NCBI RefSeq assembly: GCF_003633755.1
Contig: NZ_RBIL01000002.1
Coordinates: forward strand, 310,001 to 374,000
DNA: 64,000 nucleotides
Reading direction: 5' to 3'
From: Solirubrobacter pauli
GTDB taxonomy: Bacteria; Actinomycetota; Thermoleophilia; Solirubrobacterales; Solirubrobacteraceae
Shown here: positions 24,453 to 28,927 of the stretch, in pieces
How positions within the stretch are numbered: the first letter of the stretch is position 1
Layout of the letters: each line of letters begins with the position of its first letter
The notes under the pieces: model-generated
Told to the model about the DNA's origin: nothing
What the model saw: only the letters and a program-made list of their open reading frames with translations
The model's database searches: none
Position numbers and translations under genes: made by a program

Positions 24453-25126
24453 GCGCGCAGCCGGTCATCCACCTGCGCGACGTCACGCGCGAGTACCGGG
24501 TCACGGAGGAGGTCGTCGTCCACGCGCTGCGCGGGGTCTCGCTCCGGATCGACCAGGGCGACTACGTGGCGGTGATGGGCAGCTCGGGCTCCGGCAAGTC
24601 GACGCTGATGCACATCCTCGGCTGCCTCGACTCGCCGACCGACGGGCGCTATCTGCTCGACGGCACCGACGTGCGTGACATCCCCGAGGACGACCTCGCC
24701 GACCTGCGCAACCGCAAGATCGGCTTCGTCTTCCAGGCGTTCAACCTCGTGCCGCGCACGAGCGCGCTGGCGAACGTCGAGCTGCCGCTGACCTACGCGG
24801 GCGTGCCACGGGCGACCCGCCGCATGCGCGCCGCGGCCGCGCTGCGCGCCGTCGGCATGGGGGAGCGGATGCACCACCTGCCGTCGGAGCTGTCCGGCGG
24901 CCAGCAACAGCGTGTCGCGGTCGCCCGCGCGCTCGTCACCAACCCGCCGCTGATCCTCGCCGACGAGCCGACCGGCAACCTCGACACGCACTCCACCGCC
25001 GAGGTGCTCGACGTGTTCGAGCGGCTCAACCGGGCCGGCCGCACGATCGTGATGATCACGCACGAGGACGACGTCGCCGCCCGCGCGCAGCGCACGATCC
25101 GCCTCGCCGACGGGCTCGTCCTGTGA
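24449..25126 (+). CDS. MacB/LolD-type ABC transporter ATP-binding protein
   Basis: 225 residues. Walker A GSSGSGKST, the Q loop in FVFQAFNLVPR, signature LSGGQQQRVAVARAL, Walker B LILADEPTGNLD and the switch His in MITHE are all intact. The sequence belongs to the MacB/LolD/FtsE group that powers mechanotransmission exporters. It overlaps the adaptor gene upstream and the permease gene downstream by four bases each, so the three subunits should be made in fixed proportion. Confidence 0.93.
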   Translation: MSAQPVIHLRDVTREYRVTEEVVVHALRGVSLRIDQGDYVAVMGSSGSGKSTLMHILGCLDSPTDGRYLLDGTDVRDIPEDDLADLRNRKIGFVFQAFNLVPRTSALANVELPLTYAGVPRATRRMRAAAALRAVGMGERMHHLPSELSGGQQQRVAVARALVTNPPLILADEPTGNLDTHSTAEVLDVFERLNRAGRTIVMITHEDDVAARAQRTIRLADGLVL

Positions 25127-26304
25127 GCGGCCGCGAGATCGTCCGGATCGCGCTGGGCGGGGTCGCGGCGAACAAGCTGCGCTCCGGCCTGACGATCCTC
25201 GGCATGACGATCGGCGTCTCCGCCGTGATCATCCTCGTCGCGGTCGGCAACGGCTCTAGGAACGCGGTCCAGGCGTCGATCGACGCGCTCGGCTCGAACG
25301 TCCTGCTGGTGCAGCGCGCGTTCGGGGCGGAGGTCACGTTCACGCAGCGCGACGCGGACGCGCTCGCCGACGAGTTCAACGCGCCGGACGTCGAGCGCGT
25401 CTCGCCCGTCGTCAACGCCACCGGCACCGCGTTCGTCGCCGGGCAGGAGAGCTACGAGCCGAGCTCGGTGGTCGGCACCGTGCCGGCCTACGCCCAGACA
25501 CGCGCGTATGAGCTCCAGAGCGGCGCGATGTTCACGTCGGCCGACGTCAGCCGCCACCGCCGGGTGGTCGTGCTCGGTCCGACCGTCGCGCAGAGCCTCT
25601 TCGGAGGCGCCGACCCCGTCGGCCAGAGCGTGCGGATCAACGGGACGAGCTTCCAGGTCGTGGGCGTCACGGCCGCCAAGGGCTCGAACGGGACGCAGGA
25701 CCAGGACGACATCGCGCTCGCGCCGGTCACCGCGGTGCAGGACGCGGTCACGGGCTACGCGTCCGGGCTGAGCTCGATCACGGTCGAGGCGCGGTCCGGC
25801 GACGCGCTCGACGCCGCCCAAGCCGAGGTCACGTCGATCCTCACGCAGCGCAAGGACGGCGCGGACGGCTTCCAGGTGATCAACCAGAGCTCGATCCGCG
25901 AGGTCGCGACCGCGTCCACGGACGTCTTCACGACGCTGCTCGGCGCCGTCGCCGCGATCTCGATGCTCGTCGGCGGGATCGGCGTGATGAACATCATGCT
26001 CGTCTCGGTCACCGAGCGCACGCGCGAGATCGGCATCCGCAAGGCGATCGGCGCGCGCCGGGCGGACATCCTCGCCCAGTTCTTGACCGAGGCGGTCGTC
26101 ATCAGCGCCTTCGGCGGCATCACCGGCGTGCTCGTCGGGATCGTCGGCAGCCAGTTCGAGATCGCGGGCGTCGAGCCGGCGATCGCGGCGTACTCCGTGG
26201 CCCTCGCGTTCGGCGCGTCCGTGCTCTCAGGCCTGTTCTTCGGCACCTATCCCGCGGGCCGCGCGGCGCGCATGCGCCCGATCGACGCCCTGCGGTTCGA
26301 GTAA
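25123..26304 (+). CDS. MacB-type ABC transporter permease (FtsX fold)
   Basis: 393 residues. Topology is one N-terminal span (LTILGMTIGVSAVIILVAVG), a large extracytoplasmic MacB core domain (about 45-250), and three C-terminal spans with the FtsX signature GGIGVMNIMLVSVTERTREIG and KAIGARRADI. With the adjacent ATPase and adaptor it forms a MacAB-like exporter; such pumps move macrolides, peptides or lipids. The GTG start overlaps the preceding stop. The next gene begins eight bases after the stop behind AAGGAG. Confidence 0.92.
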   Translation: MSGREIVRIALGGVAANKLRSGLTILGMTIGVSAVIILVAVGNGSRNAVQASIDALGSNVLLVQRAFGAEVTFTQRDADALADEFNAPDVERVSPVVNATGTAFVAGQESYEPSSVVGTVPAYAQTRAYELQSGAMFTSADVSRHRRVVVLGPTVAQSLFGGADPVGQSVRINGTSFQVVGVTAAKGSNGTQDQDDIALAPVTAVQDAVTGYASGLSSITVEARSGDALDAAQAEVTSILTQRKDGADGFQVINQSSIREVATASTDVFTTLLGAVAAISMLVGGIGVMNIMLVSVTERTREIGIRKAIGARRADILAQFLTEAVVISAFGGITGVLVGIVGSQFEIAGVEPAIAAYSVALAFGASVLSGLFFGTYPAGRAARMRPIDALRFE

Positions 26305-26312
26305 GGAGTGAG

Positions 26313-26762
26313 ATGACCGACGAAGACCTCCTGTCGGAGCCGCTGCCCGTGCGCACGCGCGGCCGGCTCGTGACCGGCGTGGGCGCGGCGTTCGCGGCCG
26401 TGACGATCGGCGCGCTCGGGTTCCTGGGCGGCGTGCACGTGCAGAAGGCGCAGGGCGAGGCGACACCCGCGCGCGGGGCCTTCCCGGGCGGCGGCGGGTT
26501 CGGTGGCGCGCAAGCCCAGCAGGCCGACGCCACCACCGGCGAGGTGTCGAGCGTGGACGGCTCGACCTTCTACGTGCAGGACGCGAGCGGCAACACGATC
26601 CGCGTGCGCGCGGGCGAGCAGGCGAAGGTCTCGCGCAACGCGGTGGCGGACGCGGAGGCGATCCACCCGGGCGACACGGTCGTCGTCACGGGACGCACCG
26701 CGAGCAGCGGCACGGTCGTCGCGACCTCGGTCATCGCGACGGCGAGCAACGCAGGTCGATGA
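26313..26762 (+). CDS. Single-span protein with DUF5666-like beta domain, exporter-associated
   Basis: 149 residues. A cytoplasmic N-terminus (about 1-20) is followed by one span (VGAAFAAVTIGALGFLGGV), a Gly-rich linker AFPGGGGFGGAQAQQ, and an OB-like beta domain: ATTGEVSSVDGSTFYVQD, then IRVRAGEQAKVSR and HPGDTVVVTGR. This resembles DUF5666 domains. It is fourth in the exporter operon, eight bases after the permease, with an AAGGAG ribosome binding site. The Gly/Phe motif also appears at the end of the adaptor, hinting at contact between the two. Function unknown; an accessory subunit or cargo chaperone is possible. Confidence 0.7.
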   Translation: MTDEDLLSEPLPVRTRGRLVTGVGAAFAAVTIGALGFLGGVHVQKAQGEATPARGAFPGGGGFGGAQAQQADATTGEVSSVDGSTFYVQDASGNTIRVRAGEQAKVSRNAVADAEAIHPGDTVVVTGRTASSGTVVATSVIATASNAGR

Positions 26763-27304
26763 ACGGAGACGAGATGGAAGAGGAACTGGAGGGCGGCGTC
26801 AGCTGGATCGCGATCGTCGCCGTGGTGGCGGTCGTCGTGGCGGCGGTCGCGTTCTTCGCGGGCCGCGCGCTCGCGGGCGGCGGCGGGCCGGAGACGCTGA
26901 GCGAGGCGGTCGCGCAAGCGCAGGCCGGCGACCTGCCGTGCGGGGACGTGCCCGAGGCGCCGACGCCGGGCGCTGACACCGCCGGCGCCCCAGCCGCGGG
27001 CGGTGCCGGCTTCCTCGTGCGCGCGGTCTGCAACCAGGGCGGCGCCCCGGCCGGCGCTCAGGGGCGGATGGGCTTCGGTGGCGGCCGCGGCGTCGGGCAG
27101 CAGGTCAAGTCCGTCGACGGCGACACGCTGACGCTGACCGGCCCGCAGGGCGACACGAACGTCACGATCGGCCCGTCGACGACCGTCTCCAAGAGCGCCG
27201 CGGGCGAGGTATCGGACCTCAAGGCGGGCGACAGCGTGATCGTCACCGGCGGCCGCCAGGAGGGCGAGGCCGCGACGAGCGTGCTGATCGTCCCGGGGAC
27301 CTAG
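26759..27304 (+). CDS. Second single-span DUF5666-like protein of the exporter operon
   Basis: 181 residues, a diverged paralogue of the preceding protein. An acidic N-terminus is followed by a span (WIAIVAVVAVVVAAVAFFAG), a longer loop with two Cys (GDLPCGDVP and VRAVCNQGG) that may pair, a Gly-rich GRMGFGGGRGVG, and the same beta domain: GQQVKSVDGDTLTLTGPQGD, then LKAGDSVIVTGGRQ. Its ATG overlaps the previous stop in ATGA. A tandem pair of these proteins behind a MacAB-like pump looks like a conserved accessory module. Its stop overlaps that of the convergent DUF6766 gene. Confidence 0.68.
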   Translation: MNGDEMEEELEGGVSWIAIVAVVAVVVAAVAFFAGRALAGGGGPETLSEAVAQAQAGDLPCGDVPEAPTPGADTAGAPAAGGAGFLVRAVCNQGGAPAGAQGRMGFGGGRGVGQQVKSVDGDTLTLTGPQGDTNVTIGPSTTVSKSAAGEVSDLKAGDSVIVTGGRQEGEAATSVLIVPGT

Positions 27305-27963
27305 CCCTCGATCCCGGTGTCGCTGTGCGCGGCTCCCACCGGCTTGGACTCCGGGGAGCCGCGCTGGCGCAGGTAGATCGCGAGCACCGCCATCGAGCCC
27401 ACCGCCAGGAACTCCGACTGCCAGTTCTGCAGCGTGCGGTTCCAGAAGTCGGGCGTGGCGAGGTAGGCGAGGTAGGAGACCGCTTCCTGCTGGTGCTCGA
27501 AGCGGTCGTCGTTGTAGGCGATGTGGCCGGCGACCGACTGCCCGGCCCACGACCAGAGCCAGATCGTCCCCATGACCAGCAGCAGCGAGTTCGAGTACAC
27601 GAAGGTCCGCAGCCCGCCGACCTTGGCCCACTTGGGCGAGTCGTCCCGGGCGTGCTCGCCGACCTTCTGCTCGGAGTCGGACTCGGTGCCGGCCTTGCCC
27701 GGCTCCTTGGACTCGGGCGAGCCGCGCTGGATCAGCCACACCGTGCCGAGGATGAACAGCGTGAACTGCAGGTACTCGGACTGCCAGTTCTCGAGCACGT
27801 CGACCGCGAACGAGGACGAGCGCAGGTAGCGCCAGAGCGTGATCGGGTCACCGTGGTGGGCGAGCTGCTGCGCGTTGAAGTCGTGCAGGCCCACGAACGC
27901 CTGCGCGACGAGCGTGCCGACGAACAGCAGCCCGAACCCCAGCGCGAGGCTGTTGCCCTTCAC
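27301..27963 (-). CDS. DUF6766-like four-span membrane protein with internal duplication
   Basis: 220 residues from a GTG at 27963 that forms a GTGA overlap with the small gene upstream; an in-frame GTG nine bases earlier is less likely. Two similar halves each end with a Trp-Gln-Ser motif, a span and a basic tail: ENWQSEYLQFTLFILGTV ... RGSPESK and QNWQSEFLAVGSMAVLAI ... RGSPESK. Spans also lie at NSLALGFGLLFVGTLVAQAF and FVYSNSLLLVMGTIWLW. The halves are joined by a charged loop (about 90-115). I recognise the family as DUF6766; its function is not established. Confidence 0.78.
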   Translation of the reverse strand: MKGNSLALGFGLLFVGTLVAQAFVGLHDFNAQQLAHHGDPITLWRYLRSSSFAVDVLENWQSEYLQFTLFILGTVWLIQRGSPESKEPGKAGTESDSEQKVGEHARDDSPKWAKVGGLRTFVYSNSLLLVMGTIWLWSWAGQSVAGHIAYNDDRFEHQQEAVSYLAYLATPDFWNRTLQNWQSEFLAVGSMAVLAIYLRQRGSPESKPVGAAHSDTGIEG

Positions 27964-28043
27964 AAAGCCCACAGGCCGACCGCCGTGAAGTAGAGGAGCC
28001 CGGCGAGGATCACCACGAGGTAGAGGACGAACATCGCTCGCAT
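27960..28043 (-). CDS. 27-residue single-span membrane peptide coupled on both sides
   Basis: ATG at 28043 to TGA at 27960-27962. The product is Met-Arg-Ala-Met followed by an almost wholly hydrophobic helix (FVLYLVVILAGLLYFTAVGL) ending in Trp-Ala-Leu. The ATG shares one base with the TGA of the lipoprotein gene upstream (TGATG), and its TGA overlaps the GTG of the DUF6766 gene (GTGA). This double coupling is strong evidence that it is translated. It would insert in the cytoplasmic membrane and may be a subunit of the DUF6766 protein. Confidence 0.7.
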   Translation of the reverse strand: MRAMFVLYLVVILAGLLYFTAVGLWAL

Positions 28044-28426
28044 CAGCCCTCGGCCTCGCAGTCGAAGGGCGCGTCGCGCGACGTGGAGGTGCAACCGGCG
28101 GCGGAGATGCGCCACCCCGCGCGGGTCAGCTCGAGGAAGTAGCTCGCGCCGTTGCCGACGTCGACCTTGGCGCTGATCGAGTAGACCTGCGCGCGGGTGA
28201 CCGGGCCGGGGGAGACGTCGAGGTCGGTGACCGCGTCCGCGCACGGCCGGCTCGCCTCGAGCGACTCGGCGGCCGCCGGGGTGAGCTGCGCGCAGGCGAT
28301 CTCGCCGTCCCCGTCACGCACCGCCTGCAGGAACCGCGTGCTGACCGCGCTCACCGCGCGCTCATCGTCGGCGCGCCCGCATCCCGTCAGCGTGAGGACG
28401 AGAAGTGCGAGCGCGACGCGATGCAC
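28043..28426 (-). CDS. Putative lipoprotein, first gene of the DUF6766 operon
   Basis: 127 residues from a GTG at 28426. The signal peptide ends in the lipobox LTLTGC, so the mature protein is probably lipid-anchored. The body has four further Cys (EIACAQL, SRPCADAV, SAAGCTST, PFDCEAEG) and an SnoaL/lumazine-like look (STRFLQAVRDGDGEIACAQL, AAESLE), with VYSISAKVDVGNGASYFLEL and WRISAAGC as later strands. TAACGA six bases before the start may be the -10 box, and a perfect inverted repeat GGGTCG-n6-CGACCC overlaps it. Its TGA overlaps the ATG of the 27-residue peptide. Confidence 0.72.
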   Translation of the reverse strand: MHRVALALLVLTLTGCGRADDERAVSAVSTRFLQAVRDGDGEIACAQLTPAAAESLEASRPCADAVTDLDVSPGPVTRAQVYSISAKVDVGNGASYFLELTRAGWRISAAGCTSTSRDAPFDCEAEG

Positions 28427-28429
28427 AGT

Positions 28430-28447
28430 GGGTCGTTACACCGACCC
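28430..28447. promoter_or_regulatory. Inverted repeat over the promoter of the lipoprotein/DUF6766 operon
   Basis: GGGTCG (28430-28435) and CGACCC (28442-28447) are perfect complements around TTACAC. The spacer on the minus strand contains the TAACGA hexamer proposed as -10 for the gene starting at 28426, so a dimeric repressor bound here would block transcription. Confidence 0.4.
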
Positions 28448-28462
28448 AGGGGAAAACCCTGC

Positions 28463-28927
28463 TTAGCCGACGATGAGCTCGGCGGCCTGGCCGATCCGCT
28501 TGGAGGCGGTGCGCATGTTCTTGAGCGCCTGCTTGGCCTTCTTCACACCCGAGCCGCCACCGTTGGCGAGCGCCTGGTTGATGCCCTTCTGCAGGCGGCG
28601 GATGCCCTTGTTGTAGAGGTCCAGCGCGTCCAGCATCTTCTGGCGGCCGGCCGCGACCGGCTCGGTGTCCGCGACCTCGGCGTTCAGCTGGTCACGCCAC
28701 TGCTGCACCGACGCCGCCTGACGGCCCGCGGCGGCCTTGGCCTTGCGGAGCTGCGCGCGCGTCCGGAGCTTCTGCATCGCGTTGATGAACCGCTTGTCCT
28801 CCTTCACCTGGCGCTTCGCGTTGGAGACGACCACCTCGCGCACCGACGCGTCGCTGGCCTGCGCGGCGGGCGCGCCACCGAAGAGCACCGCGGCCATCAG
28901 CAGACCGCTCAGAACGACCTTCCGCAT
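28463..28927 (-). CDS. Secreted helical protein of unknown function
   Basis: 154 residues. The signal peptide (MRKVVLSGLLMAAVLFGGA) is cleaved after APAAQA-S, near residue 24. The mature part is Lys/Arg/Ala-rich and predicted helical with heptad-like spacing (VVSNAKRQVKEDKRFINAMQ, LNAEVADTEPVAAGRQKML, VKKAKQALKNMRTASKRIG), with no Cys. A strong ribosome binding site (GGGAGG) lies about nine bases before the ATG. A basic, extended secreted protein could bind polyanions or the cell wall. I do not recognise a family. Confidence 0.7.
   Translation of the reverse strand: MRKVVLSGLLMAAVLFGGAPAAQASDASVREVVVSNAKRQVKEDKRFINAMQKLRTRAQLRKAKAAAGRQAASVQQWRDQLNAEVADTEPVAAGRQKMLDALDLYNKGIRRLQKGINQALANGGGSGVKKAKQALKNMRTASKRIGQAAELIVG

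Follow-up and report, generated by a model that had tools for sequence, protein, structure and literature searches.

A gene of only 27 codons, flanked by genes for a lipoprotein and for DUF6766 in the 64,000-nucleotide stretch of DNA analysed here (the window) and in many actinobacteria, is strongly supported by comparative sequence analysis as encoding a hidden subunit of DUF6766. It is missing from the plasmid annotations that we checked in Streptomyces, yet about 98% of loci in its clade have kept it, a clean example of an annotation gap that hides a subunit. For DUF6766, a family without a known role, this yields two candidate partners and a contact that can be tested: residue 8 of the micro-protein and residue 189 of DUF6766 would touch, which can be read from paired mutations alone, and this residue pair gives a single-experiment handle on the complex. 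We consider it quite probable that the operon specifies a stress-inducible membrane complex of DUF6766 with an obligate micro-subunit, the lipoprotein being a separable outer partner.

A conserved micro-ORF upstream of DUF6766

The window sequence and the list of its open reading frames place all three ORFs on the minus strand in the order lipoprotein, micro-ORF, DUF6766 (Table 1). One base is common to the lipoprotein stop and the micro-ORF ATG (TGATG), and the micro-ORF stop overlaps the DUF6766 GTG by 4 nt (GTGA), as described in the sequence-only reading that had proposed a fully coupled three-gene operon. The translated micro-protein is MRAMFVLYLVVILAGLLYFTAVGLWAL. That reading also held that so small a gene would be overlooked by annotation, and for three Streptomyces plasmids the RefSeq-derived gene records (PLSDB gene table, which is incomplete) indeed list DUF6766 but not the micro-ORF. 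There is one DUF6766 gene in the window's genome; its stop and that of a convergent plus-strand gene overlap in CTAG (27301-27304), and the convergent gene is in turn joined to the DUF5666-like gene before it by an ATGA overlap.

Table 1. Positions of the operon, its putative control elements and the neighbouring genes in the window.
Feature	Position	Strand	Details
MacB-like permease	25123-26304	+	assigned by eye
DUF5666-like secreted protein	26313-26762	+	E 7.7e-6, just under cut-off
Single-span protein	26759-27304	+	with a similar C-terminal part
DUF6766 (PF20554) gene	27301-27963	-	GTG at 27963, stop 27303-27301, 220 aa, four predicted membrane helices
Micro-ORF	27960-28043	-	ATG at 28043, TGA at 27962-27960, 27 aa, predicted single-span membrane protein
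Lipoprotein gene	28043-28426	-	GTG at 28426, TGA at 28045-28043, 127 aa
Inverted repeat TGGGTCG-6-CGACCCA	28429-28448		surrounds the -10-like hexamer; possible operator
-10-like hexamer GTGTAA	28436-28441	-	putative; ends 9 nt before the lipoprotein start, one consensus mismatch
-35-like element GGGTTT (GNNTNN), SigB-type	28454-28459	-	putative; 12 nt before the -10-like hexamer
Secreted helical protein gene	28463-28927	-	ends 36 nt before the lipoprotein start

Loci were drawn from actinobacterial contigs, whole genomes and plasmids, and the micro-ORF was sought with a profile of the micro-protein. In the discovery set, made up of 115 distinct loci whose DUF6766 belongs to the same subfamily, a micro-ORF precedes DUF6766 every time (115/115); it has exactly 27 codons in 101 loci and a 4-nt overlap with the DUF6766 start in 85. 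Loci collected later served as a hold-out, in which the micro-ORF is present in 53 of the 56 loci of the subfamily (27 codons in 44 of these), the exceptions being L230, L235 and L242. With both sets combined, 168 of 171 distinct loci possess it, 145 of these with exactly 27 codons. Among the nearest relatives of the window's locus it lies upstream of DUF6766 in every readable case, again with 27 codons (30 in L011), and the one remaining locus, L010, has a disrupted version. The GC-rich window contains many long spurious ORFs, and a chance ORF might have been suspected here, but the recurrence of the same length, sequence pattern and position across 168 of 171 loci rules this explanation out, and we assign it practically no probability. 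The idea of an invariant micro-subunit, to be found before DUF6766 in other genomes, therefore holds for one DUF6766 clade, but not for a second clade of PF20554 in which DUF6766 stands alone, without either partner. In L242 the lipoprotein gene overlaps DUF6766 directly (GTGA), the micro-ORF is gone and residue 189 is Ala, which amounts to a natural deletion of the micro-subunit. In L083 and L098, which have no lipoprotein gene, upstream ATGs may lengthen the micro-protein at its N terminus by an acidic stretch of 12-16 residues.

Amino-acid constraint, a Shine-Dalgarno sequence of its own and retention where the lipoprotein is missing together argue that the micro-ORF encodes a real protein. 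The dN/dS-like ratio is 0.60 in frame, whereas the two other frames give 0.96 and 1.36, and Gly15 (113/115), Leu16, Phe5 and Gly23 are near-fixed. The conserved residues, including residue 8, fall on one helical face at a period of 100 degrees, at marginal significance (p = 0.03). No family in Pfam or NCBIfam matched the 27-residue protein at E values up to 1, in searches that have little power for such short queries. Of the 115 micro-ORFs, 73 have a Shine-Dalgarno sequence in front of them, against a background of 11%. The same motif is found before only 3 of the 85 DUF6766 starts that overlap the micro-ORF by 4 nt, a set in which some starts add an N-terminal extension to DUF6766 and a few may be misassigned, compared with 17 of the 26 non-overlapping starts (background 11%). 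As overlapping starts rarely have a Shine-Dalgarno sequence of their own, initiation of DUF6766 seems to rely on the micro-ORF, and the combination of overlap and Shine-Dalgarno pattern is the anatomy expected of termination-reinitiation. Short gene overlaps are enriched among the subunits of heteromeric complexes (PMC10666635).

The ATGA/GTGA overlap in 85 of 115 loci and the lack of a Shine-Dalgarno sequence at those DUF6766 starts would also suit a micro-ORF that is a translational device only, delivering ribosomes to the DUF6766 start and encoding a peptide without a role. Such a device would not, however, account for the residue-level conservation noted above, with constraint in one frame only, nor for retention of the micro-ORF in the 26 loci without the overlap (17 of which have a DUF6766 start with its own Shine-Dalgarno sequence), nor for the specific co-evolution with TM4 described below. 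We therefore regard it as improbable, and favour a micro-protein that acts as a subunit.

Co-variation of the micro-protein with DUF6766

Direct-coupling analysis of the 115 paired sequences ranked residue 8 of the micro-protein and residue 189 in TM4 of DUF6766 first among all pairs, both between and within the proteins, and the pair was again first when the lipoprotein was added to the analysis. Its mutual information reaches z = 14.4. The pairing follows side-chain size: Tyr, Trp or Phe at position 8 accompanies Gly at position 189 in 46 of 115 loci, and Cys, Thr, Val, Leu or Ile at position 8 accompanies Ala, Leu, Trp or Phe at position 189 in 68, with a single exception in the discovery set (1/115) and six overall (6/168). 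The hold-out loci obey this rule in 48 of 53 cases (Fisher p = 1e-9). Changes were mapped on a tree built without column 189, with random placement of changes over 20,000 draws as the null. Gly189 changes nine times and the class of residue 8 ten times on this tree, and all nine Gly189 changes (9/9) lie on branches where residue 8 also changes, compared with a null mean of 0.6 and a maximum of 5 in 20,000 draws. When the full 168 loci are used, the two positions change together in 10 of 11 cases. In Streptomyces, L073 and L170 have both residues switched within a lineage that is otherwise mostly Cys/Ala.

This knob-and-hole co-variation indicates that the micro-protein probably packs directly against DUF6766, and the proposal that it is a DUF6766 subunit is upheld by this co-evolving contact and by the hold-out loci. 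Weaker couplings connect micro-protein residue 4 with DUF6766 residues 5 and 7, and micro-protein residues 19-26 with outer residues; they fit an orientation in which the micro-protein lies next to TM1 and TM4, probably as a helix with its N terminus inside and its C terminus outside. It has also to be considered that the micro-protein, which in size and hydrophobicity resembles membrane-acting toxin peptides, is a small toxin-like peptide controlled by its neighbours, but a peptide that is always in cis with DUF6766, is co-translated with it and has side chains that co-evolve with TM4 is very improbably of this kind.

In the complex that we propose, DUF6766 would form a four-helix membrane core from two copies of a helix - outer NWQSE loop - helix unit. 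The micro-protein would join it as a co-translated single-helix subunit, with a face composed of residues 5, 8, 12, 15, 16, 19 and 23 packed on TM4 (at residue 189) and probably on TM1. Termination-reinitiation at the ATGA/GTGA overlap would have the effect that DUF6766 is made only where a micro-subunit has just been made. The lipoprotein would be located on the outer face, where its role may be ligand binding or shielding of the conserved outer NWQSE clusters.

The lipoprotein and the putative promoter of the operon

The window's lipoprotein has a predicted signal peptide and lipobox (VHRVALALLVLTLTGC; lipobox TGC with Cys16), and the predicted lipidation site Cys16 is invariant in an alignment of 62 homologues. 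Cys45, Cys62, Cys112 and Cys123 are also conserved. The description of this protein as Cys-rich is an overstatement, as one lipobox Cys and four conserved Cys on an NTF2-like fold are not unusual. No Pfam family scored over cut-off with the window protein, and some members of its family show weak matches to DUF4878, DUF4440 and Lumazine_bd_2 (best E 0.0025). The structure model (m9000f900fbbf, pLDDT 92.9) has an NTF2-like cone fold; proteins from plasmid loci and from whole-genome-search loci were left out of the alignments used for structure modelling. The 50 best matches of a fold search (Z 8.4-10.2) are mostly NTF2-like proteins, the remainder being NTF2-like domains of larger proteins, or designs; the top match reaches a Z of up to 10.2 over 96 residues (rmsd 3.9), and the top matches have Foldseek probabilities of 0.97-0.99. 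The predicted fold is thus like that of NTF2-like/SnoaL-like domains (e.g. PDB 3rob, 3d9r and 3hx8), although these do not share the predicted lipid anchor or the four conserved Cys residues beyond the lipobox. Weaker relatives of the lipoprotein are encoded in the window's genome away from DUF6766 (G000:C1:3734646-3734978, E 1.6e-12; C1:459764-460132, E 2.6e-11).

The lipoprotein gene lies directly upstream in 145 of the 171 subfamily loci, often with overlapping stop and start, and is absent from the other 26, of which 24 retain the micro-ORF. A nested clade from the Microbacteriaceae and Micrococcaceae (L030, L038, L083, L096 and L098), together with L004, has kept the micro-ORF without the lipoprotein; in these loci the micro-ORF is the first gene, and in L030 its ATG is preceded by GGAGGAGG. 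Since the micro-ORF is kept where the lipoprotein is missing, the micro-protein is the tighter partner of DUF6766. Pairs between the lipoprotein and either of the other two proteins are at background level in the coupling analysis, so that the place of the lipoprotein in the complex is a guess from gene order, and we infer its binding to the micro-protein and DUF6766 on that basis. The new envelope complex suggested by the sequence-only reading is accordingly sustained for the micro-protein and DUF6766, through the co-evolving 8/189 pair, but not for the inclusion of the lipoprotein.

These same observations, the 26 loci without the lipoprotein and the lack of inter-protein coupling above background, would be accounted for if the micro-protein and DUF6766 form a complex and the lipoprotein, a stress lipoprotein acting on its own, has no more than the promoter in common with them. 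We give this some weight but think it somewhat unlikely, given that 145 loci keep the lipoprotein gene directly upstream, that the strong lipoprotein matches in the phylum sample occur in genomes carrying the micro-ORF/DUF6766 operon, and that in L242 the lipoprotein gene came to overlap DUF6766 itself after loss of the micro-ORF. We therefore retain the lipoprotein as a separable outer partner of the complex.

The 60 nt that precede the lipoprotein start contain GGGTA in 27 of 70 loci, compared with 4.7 in shuffled sequences (maximum 11). In 17 of the 70 upstream regions the motif is placed at a distance of exactly 15 nt from the start codon, and a GNNT lies another 15 nt upstream. Many of the loci with this signal are from Nonomuraea, and about ten other genera contribute. 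The signal matches SigB-family promoters of Streptomyces coelicolor, which have the form GNNT(NN)-N12-14-GGGWAW, with the start site just downstream (PMC8346170). The -10-like hexamer of the window matches the position of GGGTA(A/G/C) in relatives, at the same 9-nt distance from the start, and in L012, the nearest relative, the corresponding site reads GGGTTT-N12-GGGTAA. The operon may thus be under SigB-type control in this organism as well. With a promoter so near the lipoprotein start codon, a leaderless or nearly leaderless mRNA would be expected. The proposed promoter would occupy a very short gap, as the upstream gene for a secreted helical protein ends close by (Table 1), and the end of the same gene likewise lies just before the promoter in L012. 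An inverted repeat had been thought to cover the promoter, and one does bracket the -10-like hexamer, but it is a local feature: 6 of 7 arm bases match in L012, and the repeat was not found as a shared feature of other loci, where the SigB-type GNNT-N15-GGGTA recurs instead. Neither sigma-70 promoters nor EcfG-type sites (GGAAC-N-CGTT) are enriched upstream of the lipoprotein, and EcfG-like sites precede solo DUF6766 genes in only 3 of 15 loci.

DUF6766 clades, possible role and related micro-subunits

The window's DUF6766 matches PF20554 over profile positions 6-220 of 221 (E = 1.2e-92, 309.6 bits against a cut-off of 27). A model of moderate confidence (pLDDT 80, pTM 0.70) predicts four membrane helices for it. 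The first and second halves of the protein resemble each other, and both carry [EQ]NWQSE(F/Y)L on the outer side and QRGSPESK on the inner side. A fold search of solved structures returned only unspecific helical matches (Z < 8), which does not by itself demonstrate a new fold, and a sequence search of solved structures found none for DUF6766 or the lipoprotein. With moderate confidence and no solved-fold match, the biochemical activity cannot be read from the model. No paper mentioning DUF6766 was found in a literature search, and no DUF6766 in a phage collection. A branch with 100/100 support separates operon-type from solo-type sequences in a tree of 59 DUF6766 proteins. Solo DUF6766 proteins belong to the same Pfam family, are full length and share the repeated [EQ]NW(Q/E)SE and QRGSPESK-like motifs. 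In contrast to the operon type, their 33 full-length loci contain neither a micro-ORF (0) nor a lipoprotein gene (0), and they differ at 19 positions near-fixed in the operon type, including Q61/E, Q142/H and W139/F. Their hosts are plasmids of alphaproteobacteria, Deinococcus and Spirosoma (listed under Bacteroidota), and also some actinobacteria. The micro-subunit is thus not required by the DUF6766 fold itself, as L230, L235, L242 and the whole solo clade lack the micro-ORF. L101-L106 and many later matches are half-length and contain only the first DUF6766 repeat (profile 3-98 or 5-73); these may represent single-repeat ancestors or a separate family. Truncated DUF6766 remnants (L171-L176, L211-L213 and L215), in the families of G248 and G068, suggest that DUF6766 is frequently lost.

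Among 149 tallied genes flanking operon-type loci, none is a constant partner. Genes for zinc alcohol dehydrogenases, GAF/ANTAR proteins, hemerythrin, catalase and isochorismatase recur, which weakly hints at stress islands, and the solo DUF6766 of alphaproteobacteria adjoins ferritin-like, catalase, SDR and general-stress genes. A hemerythrin-domain gene in Streptomyces goshikiensis (L118, 2910-3829) overlaps the lipoprotein start by one base and may be a fourth operon gene at this locus. The SigB-type promoters and the stress-type neighbours of both solo and operon types make a role for the DUF6766 unit in stress tolerance plausible. Our best guess at its purpose, held with low confidence, is protection or maintenance of the membrane under stress. 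A broader proposal seems to us conceivable, if on balance doubtful: that DUF6766, the 27-residue subunit and the NTF2-like lipoprotein would constitute an actinobacterial envelope machine that is new, is induced by stress and has a membrane fold unseen in solved structures, and which arose when an older solo DUF6766 acquired the micro-subunit together with an outer, ligand-binding lipoprotein.

KdpF is a comparable single-span micro-subunit of a membrane complex. Micro-subunits of the CydX type have fewer than 40 residues and one helix, are encoded in the operon of their large partner and are easily missed by annotation (PMC4325964, PMC10903887). The micro-protein described here is likewise a short single-span protein encoded in a membrane protein's operon. 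It differs from CydX and KdpF in having no Pfam or NCBIfam match, in preceding its partner gene, in having as partner DUF6766, a protein of uncharacterised function, and in a contact that is read solely from co-evolution. It shares with both its small size, the single membrane helix, the position in the operon of its partner and the ease with which annotation has overlooked it, and so belongs to a known kind, the single-span micro-subunits, for which DUF6766 is a new partner family.
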